The notes under the pieces: model-generated
The model's input: only the letters and a program-made list of their open reading frames with translations
The model's database searches: none
What the model was told of the DNA's origin: nothing
In this document: positions 16,704-36,649 of the stretch, piece after piece
Position numbering within the stretch: the first letter of the stretch is position 1
How the letters are laid out: the number at the start of each line of letters is the position of its first letter
DNA from: Bacteroidales bacterium
GTDB taxonomy: Bacteria; Bacteroidota; Bacteroidia; Bacteroidales; M50B96
Assembly (NCBI GenBank): GCA_021740905.1
Contig: JAIOYV010000018.1
Coordinates: 1 to 64,000 of the forward strand
DNA: 64,000 nt
Direction of reading: 5' to 3'
Made by a program: the position numbers and the translations under genes

Positions 16704-18779
16704 ATGAAGGCAAAAGAGAATAGCTACCCCGTCGGGAGTCTGATGCATCACATTACGGAGGTGATTGCCCAGCGAAGAAAGTTCGAAAATGTGTACGAGT
16801 CCCTTACCCGGATGATCCTGGGCGATCCGAAACAGATAAAAAAAGTGAATGTGAATGGCCGCTACACTTTCGATTTTCAGGTGCTGCGTCAAAAAGGCCG
16901 CCATTTGGTGGGCATGTTCGACGAACTCAACTCCTTTGTGTCGTATGTAAAAGATGCAGCCGAAGGAGGTTCGTCACGTGAAATGGCTTTTGTGTTGATT
17001 GGCGAACCGGGCAATGGTAAGACCTTTTTTGTGGATTATGTGAGCAAATTGTATCGTGATTTCATTGCCCTGCCCGAAAATATGCGCTTTACTTTCACTT
17101 TCAACAACCTCGACAAACTGGGTGGTTATGGGCAAATTAAAACTATCGAATCGCAAACCTTCGAAGACCCGCTCATCCTGGCCATGAACCTTTTTGGGTC
17201 GAAAGAGAAAAGCACTGAGTTTCTGACCAAATTGGGGGCCGACAAAAAACAAATTGCAGGCTTCTATAAAAACTTCCGTCCGCTTGGGGCTTGCTCCGAT
17301 TATATCCTCGACCAGATAAAGGAGCATTATAACAACGACATAGATAAGGTGCTGGAGAATATAAGCATTGTGCCCATTCCCATTTCCGAATCGCGAGGAA
17401 CTTTGACCGGCAAGTATGCAGCGAAGGATAAGATTACCTCCTCGGCGGTTGATTTATTGGGCGAAGAATCCATTACCCGTTTGCTTCATATCAGCGATAC
17501 CAACAATCCCTATCGTTTCGATTTGCGAAGAGGTGCTCTGGCCCGTGTGGCAGGCGGAGGCATTCATTTTGCCGATGAGATTTTCAAAAACAAAAAAGAC
17601 CTTGTTCAAGTGTATCTCGGGGTAATCCAAAACCGCACCATCGATGTGGAAGGTTTCAAGTGGCCTCTCGACACCCTGATTATTGCCACCAGCAACAACG
17701 ACGAGTTTGCCCGTTTCATTGAAGAAAAGGAGGAAGCACCCATTGTTGACCGTTGCCGGATTTCTTACATGGCGCACAACACTAACTATTTGCTTCAGGA
17801 GCAATTAACCGATTATGCTTTGGGAAGTCTGGAAAAAACCACCTTCACCGGGGCCAAATTACACATCGACCCCAATCTGAACCAGGCCTTGTCGACCACC
17901 ACCATTTTAACCCGCATGCCCCCGTCTGATAAACTTAGCCCGTTGGAAATGATGAAACTTTCGGCAGGCGAAGTGGCAGGTGAAAAAAGTCTCAAAACCC
18001 TGTGTGAAGTGATCGACCAATTGAATACAGAACCCGATATCACTAAACGATTTGGGCAAAAAGGCATCGGTCACCGAAATTTGGGTCGTTGCATCCAGAT
18101 TTTGCTGGAAAGCTCCGAAACACAGGAGGGCAGGTGCATGTATGCCGGCGATGTGTTCAGGGCATTGGAAAAGGTAATCCTTGATTATGTGCATGAGCCT
18201 GACAACCGGATCAAGTATCTGAACGACCTGAAACTTGGCAAAACCCTCTACCGAAAAGATGTGATGACCACCATTTTCAATGCCTACATGGACGAGCCCG
18301 ATGCCATCGAAAAAGATGTGCTGAACTATGTGAACATGATTATCGGCCTGGATGCCAAAAATCTGGGGTCGGATAAAATCTGGACCTACCGCGATCCACA
18401 AACCCGCAAACTGGTCCCTCTAAAAATCGACGAATCCTTTATCGACAGTGTGGAATCGAGGATGGGACTGAAAACCAAGGAGCAAAAAATGAGCTACCGC
18501 ACTACCATCTCGAAAATATACGGTCAGAAAATGATGCAGGATACGCGATACAATTTCATGGACAACAACGACCTGGTAAAAGCCGTGACGGATGTGCGCC
18601 TGAAATCGGATGTGGCCGGGGCCGGCAGCTTGGTGGGTGCCTTGAGCAACCGCACCAACGAAGAAAATCAGAAACTGTTCAACAGGATGCTCGACACCAT
18701 GAAAAACAAACTGGGCTATTGCGAAACCTGCGCCCTAAAAACCATCGAGTATTTCTGCACACAGGATGATGTGTCGTAA
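16704..18779 (+). CDS. prkA: PrkA-family AAA+ serine protein kinase (YeaG)
   Basis: 691 residues. It has an AAA_PrkA domain with Walker A GEPGNGKT (100-107) and a Walker B-like stretch GGGIHFADE near 284-292, followed by the PrkA C-terminal region. In enterobacteria PrkA/YeaG acts with YeaH and SpoVR/YcgB in starvation and nitrogen stress responses; Bacillus PrkA affects sporulation. Here the same three genes follow in order on the same strand. The start is supported by GGAGG 5 nt upstream. Length and domain order are normal for the family. Its protein substrates cannot be told from sequence. Confidence 0.9.
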   Translation: MKAKENSYPVGSLMHHITEVIAQRRKFENVYESLTRMILGDPKQIKKVNVNGRYTFDFQVLRQKGRHLVGMFDELNSFVSYVKDAAEGGSSREMAFVLIGEPGNGKTFFVDYVSKLYRDFIALPENMRFTFTFNNLDKLGGYGQIKTIESQTFEDPLILAMNLFGSKEKSTEFLTKLGADKKQIAGFYKNFRPLGACSDYILDQIKEHYNNDIDKVLENISIVPIPISESRGTLTGKYAAKDKITSSAVDLLGEESITRLLHISDTNNPYRFDLRRGALARVAGGGIHFADEIFKNKKDLVQVYLGVIQNRTIDVEGFKWPLDTLIIATSNNDEFARFIEEKEEAPIVDRCRISYMAHNTNYLLQEQLTDYALGSLEKTTFTGAKLHIDPNLNQALSTTTILTRMPPSDKLSPLEMMKLSAGEVAGEKSLKTLCEVIDQLNTEPDITKRFGQKGIGHRNLGRCIQILLESSETQEGRCMYAGDVFRALEKVILDYVHEPDNRIKYLNDLKLGKTLYRKDVMTTIFNAYMDEPDAIEKDVLNYVNMIIGLDAKNLGSDKIWTYRDPQTRKLVPLKIDESFIDSVESRMGLKTKEQKMSYRTTISKIYGQKMMQDTRYNFMDNNDLVKAVTDVRLKSDVAGAGSLVGALSNRTNEENQKLFNRMLDTMKNKLGYCETCALKTIEYFCTQDDVS

Positions 18780-18836
18780 GAGTTCTGAGTTGGAGAGTTC
18801 TGAGTTCTGAGTTGAAAAGTTCTGAGTTGGAGAGTT
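18780..18836 (+). repeat. Degenerate GTTCTGAGTT repeat
   Basis: After the PrkA stop, the motif GTTCTGAGTT recurs four times with GGAGA or GAAAA between copies. Related runs lie at 20336-20364, 30821-30857 and 31486-31602, always between genes. Confidence 0.6.
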
Positions 18837-18852
18837 CAAAGTTATAAAACTT

Positions 18853-18918
18853 AATGACTATGGAATGACAATCGAATGACTACTTAATGACCATTGAATG
18901 ACAACTGAATGACTAATG
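18853..18918 (+). repeat. Six 11-bp repeats running into a start codon
   Basis: Six consecutive 11-bp units begin AATGAC (or AATGACT) and end in variable bases. The last unit ends in the ATG of the YeaH gene (18916-18918). A change in copy number would therefore alter the leader next to the start. Confidence 0.7.
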
Positions 18919-20277
18919 AAAAGCAACGAAAGAGAAATACTAAGAAAGTTGATCGACAAGGGACTACCCGCCGGGCAAAGGGAGCTGATCGAAAGAGAGC
19001 TGGAGATGAGCAAAAGTCGAACTATTCCGCGCCATGCCAGAATTCCGAAGTATGACAATTTTTTCTCGATGGATGATTTTTTTTCATTTTATGGCTACAA
19101 AAACGAAGCACAGGAGGCACGAGTCAATTTAAAAACCCTCGAAGAATTATTAGAACAAGACAAACAGCGCGATGCAGATGGTTTCCCGAAAAGGGTAAAA
19201 ATTGGCCGTTTGATTAAACCTGTGAAAGGGAAAAGTGGGAAAGTGATAATTGTGCCTACCACCACTGAACCTAAGTTTTACCACGACAACTCGATGGACG
19301 AATCGGAGGAAGGGCAAACGGGCGGTAGCGGCGAAGGGGCCGAGGGCGAAGTTATCGGTAAACAGCCCGCCCAACCCGAAGATGGCGAAGGAACCGGAGC
19401 AGGCCAGGGTGGAGGCGGCGATCACGACATTAGCTCAGAGGCATTCGACCTGGGGAAATTACTTACCGAAAAGTTCCAGTTGCCCAACATCAAAGACAAG
19501 GGCAAGAAAAAATCGATGACCAAAGTAAAATACGACCTCACCGATACCCACAAAGGATTTGGTCAGTTATTGGATAAAAAGGCGACACTGAGACAAATTG
19601 TCGAAACCAATATCCTGTTGGGAAGGATCAAAGCAAACGAGCCTTTTTCGAGCGAAAAATTGCTGGTCAGCCCACAGGACAATGTGTTTAGAATTCTATC
19701 CAAGGAAAAGGATTACGAAAACCAGGCCATGGTGTTTTTTATCCGCGATTACTCCGGGTCTATGTCGGGGAAACCTACTGAGTCGGTATGCATGCAACAC
19801 CTATTTATCTATAGCTGGTTGATGTACCAGTATCAGAATAATGTGGAAGCCAGGTTTATTTTGCACGACACCGAGGCCAAGGAGGTAAAGGATTTTGCCA
19901 CGTATTATCGATCACAAATTGCAGGGGGTACGCAGATCTATCCAGCCTTCGAGTTGGTTAACAAAATGGTGATCGAAAAACAACTGGCCATTGACTACAA
20001 CCTGTATGTGTATTATGGCACCGATGGCGACGATTGGGATCAGACGGGGACAAAAACACTGGCAGCCATCGAAGAGATGCTGAAATACATCAATCGCCTG
20101 GGGATAAGCATTGCCAGGAACAGCTGGTCGAACGAAAACAAAACAACCCTGGAGAATTACATCGAAGACTCCGGCATGTTAAAAAAGAAATCGGAGCTGT
20201 TTAAACTCGACAGTTTTAATGCTGATACGGTGTCGGAAGAACGATTGATTGAGGGGATTAAGAAGTTGAACGAGTGA
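18916..20277 (+). CDS. yeaH: YeaH/DUF444 family protein with vWA-like fold
   Basis: 453 residues. The N-terminal part (1-110) has the basic and aromatic DUF444 pattern. A linker rich in Gly and Glu follows (about 128-172), then a C-terminal von Willebrand A-like domain with MIDAS DYSGS (D278, S280, S282) and a GGTQ loop near 330. It is the normal partner of PrkA and SpoVR and may act as an adaptor or assembly factor. It lies between those two genes on the same strand. The start is preceded by an 11-bp repeat tract. Confidence 0.88.
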   Translation: MKSNEREILRKLIDKGLPAGQRELIERELEMSKSRTIPRHARIPKYDNFFSMDDFFSFYGYKNEAQEARVNLKTLEELLEQDKQRDADGFPKRVKIGRLIKPVKGKSGKVIIVPTTTEPKFYHDNSMDESEEGQTGGSGEGAEGEVIGKQPAQPEDGEGTGAGQGGGGDHDISSEAFDLGKLLTEKFQLPNIKDKGKKKSMTKVKYDLTDTHKGFGQLLDKKATLRQIVETNILLGRIKANEPFSSEKLLVSPQDNVFRILSKEKDYENQAMVFFIRDYSGSMSGKPTESVCMQHLFIYSWLMYQYQNNVEARFILHDTEAKEVKDFATYYRSQIAGGTQIYPAFELVNKMVIEKQLAIDYNLYVYYGTDGDDWDQTGTKTLAAIEEMLKYINRLGISIARNSWSNENKTTLENYIEDSGMLKKKSELFKLDSFNADTVSEERLIEGIKKLNE

Positions 20278-20335
20278 CATTTGTCTGTAACTTGAAATTG
20301 GAAATTAGAAATTTGGCAGGAAATATTTAACTGGT

Positions 20336-20364
20336 GAACTCAGAACTTTGAACTCAGAACTTGG
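20336..20364 (+). repeat. AACTCAGAAC repeat, two copies
   Basis: Two copies of GAACTCAGAACTT lie just before the SpoVR gene. They are the reverse complement of the GTTCTGAGTT family at 18780. Confidence 0.5.
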
Positions 20365-20376
20365 TAACTTATAATA

Positions 20377-21975
20377 ATGAAACTGATAGATCAAAATACT
20401 AAAAGAATAATGGAGGGCTGCAAAGAAAGGGCCTGGGATGCCGGTTTGAGGTTCGATAAGGAATCGCTGGAGTATATTGTCACCAACAAAGACATGATCA
20501 ACCTGTCGCCCAAAGTGATGATCCCCACCCTGTATGATTATTGGGTACAGGATATCGAAGTGTTGCAGGGCCATGGTCAGTACGAGGTGTATCCAAACAA
20601 CCCTTACGAAACAGTGATCAATTCCCGCCCGGCCATTTCCTTTTACAACGACAACAACCCCGACTGGATGAACATCATGATCTTCTACCACGTACTTGGG
20701 CATATCGACTTTTTTCAGAACAATAAACTTTTTCAGAATACTTGGAACGACGATTTCGTGGGTCAGGCACTAGCCGATAAACGACTGATCGCACAACTTA
20801 GAATTAAGCATGGCCGGTGGGTCGATTATGTGATCGAGTTTAGCCGGAGCATCGACAATATTGTTGGTTTTTATAGTGGGATTTCAAAAAAAGAATATCC
20901 GGTACAGTTAAACCCTTCGGCCATGATCGATTTCTATTTCTACCATTTTTTACAAGGGCAAAAAAAGCTTTCTCAACTTGACATTTACAAGGAAATTGAA
21001 CGGTATAACCAACTTATTTCATCCTCCGCCGATCAGGGCGAATCCATGTTCTTTGAAGAAGTAAAAAAGAAATGGCCTGAATTTTTGGAAGTCTACAAAG
21101 AATTTGATCCTCAGAAAAAAGTACAGGAAGAAGACCTGTTGGAATATATTTTGGAACATTCGCCCTTCTTGAAAAAAAGCTCGCATGTGTGGATGAAATC
21201 GGTGGTCAACATTGTTCGGCAAACGGCTTTGTACTTCGCCCCCCAGATGCGCTCAAAAACCATCAACGAAGGCTGGGCCAGTTATTGGCACGACGAGCTT
21301 TTCAGAAAAGACGACCGGATTGCCGGGCACGAAAGCGGGTATGCAAAACTCAATGCCTCGGTAACTTCCCTTAGCCGGATCGGGCTTAACCCCTATGCCA
21401 TTGGCCTGCGCTTGTTGCAGCACATCGAAGAACTGGCCAACAAAGGCAAACTAAACTATCAATTCCAGAAGAAAAGAGGCATTTCTGAACGCGAAGATTA
21501 TGATATGAAAACAGGTTTGGGCAAGGCCACACTTTTCAAAATTAGGGAAGAGTTTTCTGATTTCACTTTGTTCAACAGCTTTGTTTCGCAGGATTTTGTG
21601 GATGAATACGGGGTTTTTGTAACCGGCAAACGCTTCAACCCTGAAGAGGGCACTATTGAGTATTACATTAAAAGTCGCAAGGCCGAAGACTATAAGGAGA
21701 TGTTGGTCAATTCGCTCTACCATCCGCCCTATATAATCATCGACCATGAAAAAACAAACGATGAAAACCTTTACCTGGTACATCATTTTGAAGGCAAGAA
21801 CCTGTACATGGAATACATCCCCGATACTCTTTTAGGCATCGAATACCTCTGGGGAGGAAGTGTGCAACTCGAAACCACCGAAATCAGAAAAGACAAAAAA
21901 ACGGGCGAAATTAGCCAACAAGAGTTTGTTTACACGATGAAAGATCGAAAGATTGAGAAGATGAAGAAAACGTAG
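20377..21975 (+). CDS. spoVR: SpoVR family protein (YcgB)
   Basis: 532 residues, normal for SpoVR/YcgB. Recognisable family segments include NPDWMNIMIFYHVLGHIDFF (near 90-109), NEGWASYWHDELF (near 304-316) and the C-terminal Arg/Lys-rich end. The His/Glu-rich HxLGHxDFF and NEGWAxxWH patches resemble metal-binding motifs. It belongs to the PrkA-YeaH-SpoVR stress module, here complete and in the enterobacterial order. Its biochemical activity is not established. Confidence 0.92.
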   Translation: MKLIDQNTKRIMEGCKERAWDAGLRFDKESLEYIVTNKDMINLSPKVMIPTLYDYWVQDIEVLQGHGQYEVYPNNPYETVINSRPAISFYNDNNPDWMNIMIFYHVLGHIDFFQNNKLFQNTWNDDFVGQALADKRLIAQLRIKHGRWVDYVIEFSRSIDNIVGFYSGISKKEYPVQLNPSAMIDFYFYHFLQGQKKLSQLDIYKEIERYNQLISSSADQGESMFFEEVKKKWPEFLEVYKEFDPQKKVQEEDLLEYILEHSPFLKKSSHVWMKSVVNIVRQTALYFAPQMRSKTINEGWASYWHDELFRKDDRIAGHESGYAKLNASVTSLSRIGLNPYAIGLRLLQHIEELANKGKLNYQFQKKRGISEREDYDMKTGLGKATLFKIREEFSDFTLFNSFVSQDFVDEYGVFVTGKRFNPEEGTIEYYIKSRKAEDYKEMLVNSLYHPPYIIIDHEKTNDENLYLVHHFEGKNLYMEYIPDTLLGIEYLWGGSVQLETTEIRKDKKTGEISQQEFVYTMKDRKIEKMKKT

Positions 21976-21988
21976 TGGGAAGAAAAGC

Positions 21989-22007
21989 CACCCGATAAAT
22001 TCGGGTG
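21989..22007. repeat. REP-like palindrome, CACCCGA form
   Basis: CACCCGA-TAAAT-TCGGGTG follows the SpoVR stop by about 13 nt. It could end the SpoVR transcript, and it is related in design to the other palindromes around the transposase gene. Confidence 0.7.
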
Positions 22008-22041
22008 ATACCTCAACAAATTGGGTACACCGTTGAGACAA

Positions 22042-22179
22042 CACCACAATTTATTGTGGTGATATAGCGTGTAGAATAGAAATTAACTGAGTTGAGGCAA
22101 CACCACAATTTATTGTGGTGATCCAGCGAGTAGAATAGAAACATACTGAGTTGAGGCAACACCACAATTTATTGTGGTG
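22042..22179. repeat. Three REP-like palindromes with 59-bp period
   Basis: CACCACAATTTATTGTGGTG occurs at 22042, 22101 and 22160. The sequence between copies is also conserved, so the unit is a 59-bp tandem repeat. Each palindrome is preceded by GTTGAGACAAC or GTTGAGGCAAC, itself a small GTTG/CAAC hairpin. Confidence 0.9.
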
Positions 22180-22217
22180 ATTATGGTGAATAACAATACG
22201 AACTAAAACCAAAAACT

Positions 22218-22655
22218 ATGGCAATACATTCCTACGTACAAGTCTGGGTACACATGGTGTGGGGGACATACAAGCACATACCTGTTCTTCACAGAGACTT
22301 ACGCCTAAAACTCTTCGACCATCTGGTTGAAAGAGCAGACCAAATAGATGTTACCCTTGAAAAACTAAATGTGCAACCCGAACATGTCCACATGCTGTAT
22401 TCCTTGCCATCGGACAAAACACTTGGGCAAATAGCAAAATTATTCAAAGGAGAATCCTCAATATGGATTAGTAATGCCGGTTTGATAAAGCCCGAATTTC
22501 AATGGAGCAGAGGCTATGGGGCTTTTTCCGTGAGCGACTCAATAGTAGAAACTGTAAAACACTACATCAGAACACAGGACAAACATCATAACACACAAAA
22601 CTTTACAGACGAGTATATAGGTTGGGCAAAAAGGTACGGGGTGTATGATGATTAA
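22218..22655 (+). CDS. REP-associated Y1 tyrosine transposase (IS200/IS605-like)
   Basis: 145 residues. The HUH motif is EHVHML (H56, H58) and the catalytic tyrosine is Y116 in HYIRTQDKHH, both typical of Y1 single-strand transposases. The length matches the IS200 family. The gene has no insertion-sequence ends of its own but is surrounded on both sides by palindromic repeat arrays, as in REP-associated tyrosine transposases (RAYTs) that process REP hairpins. It interrupts the stress operon between SpoVR and the second PrkA-like gene. It appears intact. Confidence 0.88.
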   Translation: MAIHSYVQVWVHMVWGTYKHIPVLHRDLRLKLFDHLVERADQIDVTLEKLNVQPEHVHMLYSLPSDKTLGQIAKLFKGESSIWISNAGLIKPEFQWSRGYGAFSVSDSIVETVKHYIRTQDKHHNTQNFTDEYIGWAKRYGVYDD

Positions 22656-22729
22656 TGACAGACTTTTCACCCAAAAGAAAAACTTTAGAGGCGTGGTGTT
22701 TGGTAGTGAACACAACACCCGGAAAAACC

Positions 22730-22812
22730 CACCCGAATAAATTCGGGTGACAGCTTAACTTAAAGAGGTGTAGTTTCTGTTGAGAGAAAACCCACCCGAA
22801 TAAATTCGGGTG
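22730..22812. repeat. Two REP-like palindromes, CACCCGAA form
   Basis: CACCCGAATAAATTCGGGTG occurs at 22730 and 22793. The 8-bp stems are perfect with loop TAAA. The first is about 75 nt after the transposase stop. Confidence 0.85.
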
Positions 22813-22847
22813 ATACCTCAACCAAGTTGAGCACACAGTTGAGACAA

Positions 22848-23005
22848 CACCACAATTCATTGTGGTGTTATAAACGAACTGAGGTTGAGACAACACCACA
22901 ATTCATTGTGGTGTTATAAACGAACTGAGGTTGAGACAACACCACAATTCATTGTGGTGTTATAAACGAGCCGAAGTTGAGACAACACCACAATTTATTG
23001 TGGTG
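22848..23005. repeat. Four REP-like palindromes with 46-bp period
   Basis: CACCACAATTCATTGTGGTG at 22848, 22894 and 22940, and the TTTA-loop form at 22986. The whole 46-bp unit is repeated with few changes, again with GTTGAGACAAC just before each palindrome. Confidence 0.9.
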
Positions 23006-23055
23006 ATAGTAGTGGTGATAGTAGTGGCGGTATCAGTGAACTTAGAAAACGAACT

Positions 23056-25374
23056 ATGGCAAAACAAGAAGAACTACAAAAACTAAAAGAAGACCTGGTA
23101 AAGCAGGGCGAGCGGCTTGATGCACTAACCGAGCTGGGAACACGCATGGGTAATCGTGAACAACGCACTCACCTCACCTTTAACGAATTCCTGAACATTG
23201 CTTCAAGGAAACCCCACTTTATTTTCAGGGATATCTATCAACTGTTTCACGACATGGTTATGTATTTTATTCCTGGACCCATCGACGAATATGAAGGCGA
23301 TCCACTTTCTATCGGGTTGATGCACTACGATTGCGAAAACTTGTTTGAAAAAGATTGTGACGTGCCCTTTTTTGCCGACAATCTTTTCGCCAACCGGCTT
23401 ATCAGTATTGTGAAGGCCATAAAGCAAGGGACCAATACCAATCGGATACTGCTATTTGAAGGCCCCCCGGGCAGTGGGAAAAGCACTTTCCTTAACAACC
23501 TCCTTCAAAAGCTTGAAGAATACTCATACACAGAAGAAGGCAAACTCTACAAAACTCATTGGCGGCTCGACATCCAAAAACTGGGTGGTTTTAAAAGCTT
23601 CGAAAAGGAAATGGAAAAAATTGCCGGCCAAGCCGGCGATGCCGCAAAACAAGTATATTACGCAAACCAAGCAAAACAAACCCAATTCCCCGCTCGCAAC
23701 GAACTTTATTTTTCGTGTCCCAACCATGACCACCCAATCTTGCAAATCCCAAAAAGTTATCGAAAAGTGTTCCTGATGGAATTGATAAAAGACGATCATT
23801 TCAAACATCAACTGTTCAATAAAAAGGAATACGAATGGGTATTGAAGGAAAACCCTTGCAGTATTTGCACATCGCTTTATATCACTTTGCTGAATAGGTT
23901 GCGCGACCCCCTCAAGGTATTCGAAATGTTGTATGTGAAGCCTGCGAAATTTAGTCGGCAATTTGGTGTGGGGATCAGTATTTTTTATCCCGGGGATGAA
24001 CTGACTGATAAGCCTCTCAAAAAAGAAAACCTACAGCAAATGCTCAACGACTTGTTACGATCGGATAATGTAAAGTTAATCCAGTCGCATCTTGGCCTGA
24101 CCAATAATGGAGTGTTGGCTCTAATGGATATTAAAGGGCATAATATTGAACGCTTAAATAACCTGCACGGCATTATCAGCGACGGTGTACATAAGGTTGA
24201 ATTGATTGAAGAAAGGATTAAATCTTTGTTCGTGGGCCTGGTAAATCCCGACGATAAGAAACATTACGAAAAAATCCCATCGTTCAAAGACCGGGTGATC
24301 AGTGTGAAAATCCCTTATATTCTCGACAATAACACTGAAGTGGCCATTTACAAAAATAAATTTGGGGACGACATGGGATCGAAGTTCCTGCCCAGTGTGC
24401 TGGAATATTTTGCCAGGATAATTATCGCCACCCGCATCGACAAAAAATCCGAGGGAATCGACAAATGGCTGAAAGATAAGTCGAAGTACACAAATTTTCT
24501 CGACAGTCAATTCCTTCTTTTGAAGATGGATATTTACACCGGAAAAATACCCGCCTGGTTAACCGACACGGATTTAAAAGCCTTCAACAAGAACATTCGG
24601 AAAGAGATTATTGATGAATCGGAAGAGGAAGGTTTGAAGGGCATATCGGGAAGGGAATCGATTTTTGTATTCAACCAGTTCTTAAGCAAACACAAGCCAC
24701 CTGAAAAGCTGATTACTATCGAAGAAGTGACCAAATTCTTTAAAGACAGCAAAGATTTGATGACCGTTGTACCCGATGGATTTCTCGATTCATTGATTAA
24801 TATGTATGATTTTCAGGTGCTACAGGAAGTGAAGGAAGCTGCTTATCTATTCAATAAAAAACAGATTAGCACAGATATAATGAATTATATGTATGCCATA
24901 AATTTCGATCCCATCGAAACCGTCACAAGCACATACACCAAAGACAAACTTGAAATTACCGAGGATTATTTCAGCAATTTCGAGTCTATCTTCCTGGGGT
25001 CGGCAGCCAATCAAAAAGAAAAGAAAGAATTCCGAGACGAGCAGCTACAACAATACATATCAAAAACCCTTGCGCAGGAGATTAACCTAAAAGACACCCA
25101 TATAAGCAATACAGAGCAATTCAATAATTTATTCGAACGATATACTAAAAACCTGAAAGAACACGCCCTGGTACCCTTTGCCGATAACGAAAATTTCAAA
25201 CGGGCAATCCAGGATTATGGCTCTTTGGCTTTCGAGAAATACGACAGCCGCCTTCGAAACAGCGTGAGCCACCTCATTAAAAACCTGATGAAGAATTTTG
25301 GTTATTCCCTCGAAGGGGCAATCCTGATTTCAATATATGTAATTGACAAAAAATTGGTTGGCAAATTTGTATAA
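23056..25374 (+). CDS. Second PrkA-like AAA+ ATPase/kinase
   Basis: 772 residues, longer than the PrkA at 16704 and divergent from it. An N-terminal coiled-coil-like stretch is followed by Walker A GPPGSGKS (136-143). Between about 215 and 275 there is an insert with CPNHDH (C221, H224, H226) and CSIC (C268, C271), a possible zinc site absent from the first PrkA. The C-terminal half is helical and resembles the PrkA C-terminal region only loosely. It closes the PrkA-YeaH-SpoVR cluster on the same strand, separated by the transposase and its repeats. Its role is probably in the same stress module. Kinase activity is not shown by sequence. Confidence 0.75.
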   Translation: MAKQEELQKLKEDLVKQGERLDALTELGTRMGNREQRTHLTFNEFLNIASRKPHFIFRDIYQLFHDMVMYFIPGPIDEYEGDPLSIGLMHYDCENLFEKDCDVPFFADNLFANRLISIVKAIKQGTNTNRILLFEGPPGSGKSTFLNNLLQKLEEYSYTEEGKLYKTHWRLDIQKLGGFKSFEKEMEKIAGQAGDAAKQVYYANQAKQTQFPARNELYFSCPNHDHPILQIPKSYRKVFLMELIKDDHFKHQLFNKKEYEWVLKENPCSICTSLYITLLNRLRDPLKVFEMLYVKPAKFSRQFGVGISIFYPGDELTDKPLKKENLQQMLNDLLRSDNVKLIQSHLGLTNNGVLALMDIKGHNIERLNNLHGIISDGVHKVELIEERIKSLFVGLVNPDDKKHYEKIPSFKDRVISVKIPYILDNNTEVAIYKNKFGDDMGSKFLPSVLEYFARIIIATRIDKKSEGIDKWLKDKSKYTNFLDSQFLLLKMDIYTGKIPAWLTDTDLKAFNKNIRKEIIDESEEEGLKGISGRESIFVFNQFLSKHKPPEKLITIEEVTKFFKDSKDLMTVVPDGFLDSLINMYDFQVLQEVKEAAYLFNKKQISTDIMNYMYAINFDPIETVTSTYTKDKLEITEDYFSNFESIFLGSAANQKEKKEFRDEQLQQYISKTLAQEINLKDTHISNTEQFNNLFERYTKNLKEHALVPFADNENFKRAIQDYGSLAFEKYDSRLRNSVSHLIKNLMKNFGYSLEGAILISIYVIDKKLVGKFV

Positions 25375-35272: not shown

Positions 35273-35524
35273 ATCCAAATATCTAAACATCTATATATGT
35301 TGCAAAGAAAGGTATTTTTGCCATGATCTTAAAATTTGGTTGAAAAACAATATCCGCCGAGTGAGAAATAAATGAGTCTGTTTCGTTTCAAAAGGATATG
35401 ATTAATTGCCGAACAAGAACAGTAAATTTAGGAAGGGTGCATTGCCACAAACCAATAATTGCAGAAATCTCACCTACAATAAATTTAAACGGCTATCTTT
35501 ACCTGGTAAATCAAGTATAGCCAA

Positions 35525-36649
35525 ATGAGATTTCAGCAAATCATCTGTCGATCTACCTATTTGAAAACCCTTAGTCTTTCAATAATCTTACTAGCAAAAT
35601 GCAATCTGGGATATTCTCAGCTCGAAAAGCATGATAGCCTGCCTAACAACTTCGTCATCTTACCTGTGCCTACATTGGGGTCGTCGCCCGAAACCAGATT
35701 TTATTTCGGAGCGGCTGTGCTGTTTAGTTTTCGTTCGTCCAATGCACAGCACTCTACTTTGTCATCCGCAAAGGTGGAAGTTACCTACACCTTTAATAAA
35801 CAGATTATCTTCGATTTAGGCCACTATGTTTTTTCCAACTCGAAGAATTATTTGTTTCAGGGCAATAATACCATCCGCTACTACCCTGAGAAATTTTACG
35901 GTATTGGAAGAAACACACCTGAATTGAATGAACTATTGTACGACTATAAACTTGTAGACCTGGACAATTCGGTTTTTTATAATGTGCGAAGGGAGCTGTA
36001 TGTAGGAATAAACTACCGGTATAATAATATCTTTGACATACATTTTTCCAACGAATTGCCTTTTTCAACAGAGAATATCATTGGTCTGGATGGAGGGATT
36101 TCATCCGGTTTTGGGTATTCCCTTTTGCTTGACAGAAGGGATAATTTACTAAATCCATCCGCAGGCAGCTTTTACTTCCAAATTAAACAGACCTATTTCA
36201 ATAAAAATTTTGGCAGTTCTAATGAATTCAGTAAATTTGTTTTTGAAGCGAAAGGGTATTTTACATCATTTATAAGGCAACACATAATAGCGGTACAAAC
36301 CTATTGTGTTTCAACCGAGGGCAATGTCCCTTTCAACATGCTTGCGCTTCTTGGAAGTGACAGTCATACGAGAGGATATTTGAAAGGACGATACCGGGAC
36401 AAGAACTATTTTTCGGCTCAGGCAGAATACAGGATGCCTGTGTGGAAATGGCTTGGACTAGTCGGGTTTTATGGAATAGGCGATGTAGCCCGGAGCTTTT
36501 CCGATATCAGCATGGAGGAGTTAAAATATTCATTCGGGGGTGGGATCCGTATTCGGGTGAGCAAAGCCGATAATATAAACCTCCGGTTGGATTATGCTAT
36601 CGGGGAAGGAAGCAGTGGTTTTTATATCTCGTTTGGCGAAGCTTTTTGA
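35525..36649 (+). CDS. BamA/TamA-like outer-membrane barrel protein
   Basis: 374 residues with a signal peptide (LSLSIILLAKCNLGYSQ). The rest is a C-terminal 16-strand-type barrel of the surface antigen D15 superfamily: GFGYSLLLDRRDNLLNPSAGSFY, LGSDSHTRGYLKGRYRDKNYFSAQAEYR and a final FGEAF with aromatic C-terminus. The R-G-Y motif in TRGYLKGRYRDK fits the conserved VRGF/Y loop of the Omp85 family. No POTRA domains are visible, so it is a short member. Its partner or cargo is unknown. Confidence 0.8.
   Translation: MRFQQIICRSTYLKTLSLSIILLAKCNLGYSQLEKHDSLPNNFVILPVPTLGSSPETRFYFGAAVLFSFRSSNAQHSTLSSAKVEVTYTFNKQIIFDLGHYVFSNSKNYLFQGNNTIRYYPEKFYGIGRNTPELNELLYDYKLVDLDNSVFYNVRRELYVGINYRYNNIFDIHFSNELPFSTENIIGLDGGISSGFGYSLLLDRRDNLLNPSAGSFYFQIKQTYFNKNFGSSNEFSKFVFEAKGYFTSFIRQHIIAVQTYCVSTEGNVPFNMLALLGSDSHTRGYLKGRYRDKNYFSAQAEYRMPVWKWLGLVGFYGIGDVARSFSDISMEELKYSFGGGIRIRVSKADNINLRLDYAIGEGSSGFYISFGEAF

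Follow-up and report, generated by a model that had tools for sequence, protein, structure and literature searches.

The window, a 64,000-nucleotide stretch of DNA, contains a Y1 transposase gene, tnpA, flanked by ten short hairpins whose relatives are dispersed through the same genome. This locus is very likely a REPtron, in which a TnpA of subclass 1.2 would recognize its cognate REP-like hairpins and mobilize them as single-stranded DNA. The association between enzyme and hairpins is real and well supported, and it constitutes a REP/REPtron variant in a TnpA subclass tabulated as lacking REPs (PMC6006769).

Results

The transposase belongs to TnpA subclass 1.2

The tnpA product is a 145-residue HUH transposase that matches the Pfam family Y1_Tnp (1.5e-20) and scores 60.2 bits against the NCBIfam IS200/IS605 model NF033573 (cutoff 55). 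Its H56-V-H58 motif is followed by Y116-I-R-T-Q120-D-K-H123-H124, in which Y116 is the predicted catalytic tyrosine, and H56, H58, Y116, Q120, H123, and H124 are invariant in aligned relatives. The resulting Y---Q--HH signature assigns the enzyme to TnpA subclass 1.2, whose members are low-copy, found mostly in Cyanobacteria and Bacteroidetes, and generally without typical IS200 ends (PMC6006769). The other properties of the subclass agree: the length is close to the typical value (145 versus ~148 residues), the genome holds one close full-length copy of tnpA with all further matches partial or distant, and a T9SS type A sorting domain encoded in the window indicates, indirectly, a host that fits Bacteroidota. 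The gene is single-copy and, judged from its sequence, apparently intact.

The 2018 classification of Quentin et al. tabulates no REPs for subclass 1.2; that study recognized REPs by a GT[AG]G tag and added manual inspection in certain classes (PMC6006769). Here hairpins are present, and because it is the enzyme motif that defines the subclass, their presence is a new finding and not a reason for exclusion. A literature search, with coverage lying mostly outside subscription journals, found no paper on REPs of subclass 1.2, and a search of GTDB contigs for named relatives returned only two distant matches, in Woesearchaeota and a Patescibacteria MAG. The sequence-only reading had described tnpA as a RAYT-like gene with REP-like palindromes. 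The REP-like nature of the hairpins and their tie to a Y1 transposase hold, but the enzyme is not a strict RAYT: it carries Y---Q instead of Y---NP, it scores 21.6 bits against the NCBIfam RAYT model NF047646 (below the cutoff of 80), and its hairpins lack a GTAG tag.

Ten directional elements surround tnpA

All ten palindromes reported around the gene are present in the window sequence, the first of them in imperfect form, and the spacings of the tandem units (59 bp, three copies; 46 bp, four copies) are exact (Table 1). At no more than two mismatches, the window holds 15 matches to the palindrome, versus 3.7 ± 2.0 in shuffled sequence. Each element spans 30 bases and consists of GTTGAG, four nucleotides, and an 8-bp stem closed by a TTYA loop. 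The AC/GT elements on the plus strand read GTTGAG-RCAA-CACCACAA-TTYA-TTGTGGTG, and the CG/CG elements on the minus strand read GTTGAG-GTAT-CACCCGAA-TTTA-TTCGGGTG, one of them with GTTAAG-CTGT, such that the CG/CG elements, too, carry the tag on their own 5′ side. Because the loop (TTTA or TTCA) is asymmetric, the elements have a direction. Thus the AC/GT and CG/CG forms, taken in the sequence-only reading for two versions of one palindrome, are instead oppositely oriented partners of inverted dimers; in the window they stand as head-to-head inverted neighbors, followed by the 59- and 46-bp direct arrays. Both forms are real in the window, but more than two stem forms exist genome-wide.

A GTTG/CAAC mini-hairpin had also been proposed in front of each unit. 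Only elements with an NCAA spacer allow it, the CG/CG elements lack it, and it does not appear in the minimum-energy DNA fold; it was therefore rejected as a defining part, the conserved feature being the GTTGAG tag. A search of Rfam brought no known RNA family near its gathering threshold.

Table 1. Features of the tnpA locus (window positions; the palindrome of each element is given in parentheses)
Feature	Position	Strand	Detail
SpoVR/YcgB-like gene	20377..21975	+	Left neighbor of insert; Pfam SpoVR 5e-59
REPtron block (hairpin arrays and tnpA)	21976..23055	.	1,080-bp insert between SpoVR gene and second PrkA-like gene
REP-like element	21989..22017 (21989-22007)	-	CG/CG stem; GTTGAG-GTAT tag; imperfect (7-bp stem, 5-nt loop)
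REP-like element	22032..22061 (22042-22061)	+	GTTGAG-ACAA-CACCACAA-TTTA-TTGTGGTG; first of 59-bp array
REP-like element	22091..22120 (22101-22120)	+	AC/GT stem; 59-bp array
REP-like element	22150..22179 (22160-22179)	+	AC/GT stem; 59-bp array
tnpA	22218..22655	+	145-aa Y1 (HUH) transposase, TnpA subclass 1.2; H56-V-H58, Y116 (predicted catalytic), Q120, H123-H124
REP-like element	22730..22759 (22730-22749)	-	CG/CG stem; degenerate tag GTTAAG
REP-like element	22793..22822 (22793-22812)	-	CG/CG stem; GTTGAG-GTAT; inverted partner of 22838-22867
REP-like element	22838..22867 (22848-22867)	+	AC/GT stem; TTCA loop; first of 46-bp array
REP-like element	22884..22913 (22894-22913)	+	AC/GT stem; TTCA loop; 46-bp array
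REP-like element	22930..22959 (22940-22959)	+	AC/GT stem; TTCA loop; 46-bp array
REP-like element	22976..23005 (22986-23005)	+	AC/GT stem; TTTA loop; last of 46-bp array
PrkA-like AAA kinase gene	23056..25374	+	Right neighbor of insert; Pfam PrkA 7e-37

The block containing tnpA and all ten hairpins separates the SpoVR gene from the PrkA-like gene that follows it. In three other genomes of the order the gap between these two genes is only 1-13 bp, and the block thus appears, on this sequence comparison, to be an insert in an operon; the three genomes are distant (~60% protein identity) and the exact insert boundaries are not readable from them. The surrounding gene row (16704-25374) encodes PrkA, DUF444 (YeaH-like), SpoVR (YcgB-like), and a second PrkA-like AAA kinase with no NCBIfam match, and the SpoVR-PrkA2 pair is kept in three other genomes. 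The starts of tnpA (22200-22228) and of the PrkA-like gene (23038-23066) share 29 nucleotides at 76% identity, both ending in AACTATGGCAA, which is perhaps a trace of insertion or a shared translation start.

Copies are dispersed between genes of the same genome

In the host genome (6.54 Mb, 160 contigs) the palindrome pattern occurs at 45 sites, versus 4 for a reversed control pattern, and the tagged pattern GTTGAG-N4-hairpin gives 26 exact and ~40 near matches versus 9 for its reversed control, both strands together. In all, the genome holds ~60 copies, ~50 of them away from the tnpA locus, and the palindromes are thus not confined to the locus, as the sequence-only reading had required of its proposal. 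Nearly all copies examined are intergenic; a few overlap only small doubtful open reading frames, and in one case a pair overlaps a longer predicted one. The elements are therefore short, intergenic, dispersed, and numerous, as REPs are, with fewer copies than the >100 often quoted for REPs (PMC2817692).

Across 63 aligned copies (those of the window included) the GTTGAG tag, the outer stem CACC/GGTG, and the TTYA loop are nearly invariant, while stem pairs 5 to 8 vary with compensation (AC/GT, CG/CG, AG/CT, AT/AT, and TG/CA), pairs 7-8 also changing in compensated fashion from A-T to T-A, C-G, or G-C. The earlier observation that both stem arms change together thus extends from the window to the copies elsewhere in the genome. 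The tag was part of the search pattern behind the 63-copy list, but copies found by the palindrome alone are mostly tagged too. A T-rich 3′ tail follows 9 of the 11 elements with an NTAT spacer and 11 of the 38 others.

Some copies stand alone and others form direct arrays or inverted pairs, the partners of an inverted pair usually having different stems. The tightest array seen (L024, contig C17 102149-102303) comprises five direct tandem elements at 31-32 bp spacing, and a similar 32-bp spacing occurs at L037. The same genome carries a second tnpA fragment at a contig end (L039, contig C141, ~35386-35763), which has its own distinct family of TTYA hairpins, CCCCGGCA-TTTA-TGCCGGGG and close variants.

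Hairpin geometry follows the transposase lineage

Within 600 bp on either side of 31 tnpA loci of the order, including that of the window, there are 72 perfect hairpins with an 8-bp stem and a 4-nt loop, versus 1.2 expected from shuffled sequence; 67 of the 72 have TTYA loops, and other loop lengths are rare. This rule was then tested on 30 further loci drawn phylum-wide, which yielded 68 such hairpins (0.9 expected), 65 of them with TTYA. Pooled, the 61 loci of this lineage (lineage A) carry TTYA in 132 of 140 perfect 8-bp/4-nt hairpins, where ~2 hairpins are expected by chance. Loci without perfect hairpins number 5 of 31 in the first set and 6 of 30 in the validation set, and most lineage-A tnpA genes have matching hairpins on at least one side. 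The linkage to transposase genes in relatives on which the sequence-only reading had staked its proposal is accordingly seen, with the same geometry, at most related tnpA loci.

The stems themselves differ between genomes at related loci. Complete pairing in the perfect-hairpin count follows from its selection and is not evidence of covariation, for which variation between genomes and the own-genome list were used instead. Families share a T-W-R triplet immediately 5′ of the stem, the 3′ side having no comparable signal. Protein distance and stem distance co-diverge only weakly (Mantel r 0.16, p 0.035).

The best control comes from a sister lineage of subclass 1.2: of 42 hairpins at its 30 loci a single one has a TTYA loop, and 3-nt loops predominate; because its hairpins differ, hairpin type follows the enzyme lineage and not the phylum. 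The sister-lineage loci (L118-L147) show 3-nt loops such as ATC or AAC, as well as long flanking direct or inverted repeats, and their hairpins are possibly another REP type.

A hairpin covariance model was also searched in 247 genomes of the order, with 32 candidates scored per genome, so that its counts are lower bounds. At least five hairpin copies occur in 32 of the 39 genomes with a strong tnpA match versus 37 of the 208 others, an odds ratio of 21, the p-values for this association being optimistic because the genomes are related by descent and were treated as independent. The palindrome families of the window recur in the two genomes with the nearest tnpA genes (G078 and G097; 53% and 51% identical), which have the CACC stems of the window genome (CACCACAA, CACCATAA, and CACCCGAA/T) at 16-17 places each. 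Fourteen hairpin-rich genomes had no tnpA in the first search, and eight of these hold distant matches or tnpA remnants. In G066, G129, G170, G072, G073, and G188 the tnpA search gave no match alongside several to many TTYA hairpins; such genomes perhaps retain relic families, or have a tnpA too distant for the search. Three genomes (G102, G100, and G157) combine a strong tnpA match with few hairpins.

Inverted neighbors differ in their inner stems

Among neighboring hairpins within 130 bp of each other in the relatives, stems differ in 39 of 42 inverted pairs versus 20 of 39 direct pairs (p 3e-5). The genome of the window shows differing stems in 4 of 6 inverted and 3 of 21 direct neighbors, the window pair being among the inverted ones. 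In 21 hand-picked heterodimers, 41 differences fall in the inner four pairs and 8 in the outer four. This rule explains the compensated AC/GT and CG/CG forms of the window, which have like foot and loop, a different inner stem, and opposite strands. A preference for heterodimers has been reported for GTAG and CGTC repeats, and the rule may therefore be general (PMC3733652).

Discussion

Collectively, these data are consistent with a model in which the element folds when DNA becomes single stranded, as on the lagging strand. TnpA would then recognize the 5′ tag together with the outer stem and loop, cut beside the hairpin through Y116, and join or copy elements into further sites between genes; the inner stem would be free to vary as long as it remains paired. 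Inverted neighbors might differ in stem because identical inverted copies would pair mutually or be unstable. IS608, ISDra2, and Escherichia coli TnpA_REP bind folded single-stranded DNA hairpins strand-specifically and make an adjacent cut directed by 5′ sequence (PMC6006769, PMC8266576). The anatomy described here, with its directional tag, invariant loop and foot, and free inner stem, fits such hairpin-cutting enzymes.

A more conventional reading is that tnpA belongs to an ordinary IS200-type insertion sequence whose left and right ends are the hairpins beside the gene, and that the copies elsewhere are solo ends of old insertions. In its favor, tnpA scores above the IS200/IS605 cutoff, the block is inserted in an operon, and left and right ends might be represented by the two spacer subtypes, NTAT, in which a T-rich 3′ tail is usual, and NCAA/NCAG, in which most elements lack one. 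However, such elements are recognized by several near-identical complete copies, whereas this genome has only one close full-length copy; each side has several hairpins in both orientations, where such an element would have a single left or right end; ~50 copies, often arrayed, lack tnpA; and subclass 1.2 is low-copy and generally devoid of typical IS200 ends (PMC6006769). We consider this reading unlikely.

We give very little credence to the idea that an older palindrome family, mobilized by something else, became a preferred target for tnpA insertion. Insertion sequences that target REPs are known (PMC1525189, PMC8450116), and some genomes have many hairpins with no tnpA found, but several of those genomes hold a distant or partial tnpA, and target choice fits poorly with hairpins that lie beside most lineage-A genes with genome-specific stems while the sister lineage has another type. 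An RNA-level role, as terminators or mRNA-stabilizing hairpins with a merely secondary nearness to tnpA, deserves next to none. Almost all copies are intergenic, as such a role predicts, and the minus-strand CG/CG elements resemble terminators, with the T-rich tail common among NTAT-spacer elements. A terminator, however, needs neither a strand-specific GTTGAG tag nor a TTYA loop, most copies lack the T-tail, in the window the strand that resembles a terminator runs antisense to the genes, and the hairpin type tracks the transposase lineage. Each of these alternatives explains less of the lineage-specific hairpin geometry than does a REPtron.

The definition of REPs and RAYTs rests mainly on Proteobacteria and on the GTAG tag. 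Like the E. coli REPtron, BIMEs, and REPINs, the present system pairs a single-copy HUH/Y1 gene with short, strand-specific palindromes on either side of it; these palindromes are also scattered through intergenic DNA, bear an asymmetric unpaired tag on one side of the hairpin, and form inverted pairs of related subtypes, although direct arrays are commoner in this genome. It differs in having a class 1 enzyme with Y---Q instead of Y---NP, a fixed 8-bp stem with a TTYA loop, and, at the foot of the stem, GTTGAG-N4 in the window family and T-W-R in others in place of GT[AG]G. The group 3 REPtron of Stenotrophomonas maltophilia shares a perfect 8-bp stem and a short loop with a sequence that influences TnpA activity, but it has a 3-nt loop, a GTAG tag, and a class 2 enzyme (PMC8266576). 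CGTC-tagged REPs are likewise short tagged palindromes found in several phyla, including Bacteroidetes, yet they carry a different tag and have no dedicated transposase known (PMC3733652). The closest enzyme class is IS200/IS605 (IS608, ISDra2), in which hairpins are recognized with a guide sequence on their 5′ side, but the present genome does not contain several complete copies, each bounded by a left and a right end. The published members of subclass 1.2 agree in their Y---Q--HH signature, length of ~145 residues, low copy number, and occurrence in Bacteroidetes; they differ in that no REPs are tabulated for them (PMC6006769), whereas lineage-A members have both cognate and dispersed hairpins.

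Taken more broadly, the subclass 1.2 TnpAs of Bacteroidota probably form phylum-wide REPtrons with a hairpin code of their own: lineage A would read an 8-bp stem with a TTYA loop and the sister lineage another loop type, with inverted partners within a genome keeping foot and loop while their inner stems differ. Such REPtrons would have escaped notice because the searches for REPs demanded a GT[AG]G tag. A class 1 enzyme, nearer to true IS200 transposases, that has dispersed cognate hairpins fills a gap in the published classification and suggests more than one origin of REP-type systems among the branches of Y1 transposases. The many natural pairs of enzyme and hairpin, with their simple common geometry, offer a test of how HUH enzymes choose single-stranded DNA hairpins, and the stem-heterodimer rule is a testable clue to the upkeep of REP pairs. 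These findings point to very small repeated elements, served by an enzyme of their own, as a class that has been overlooked across the phylum.
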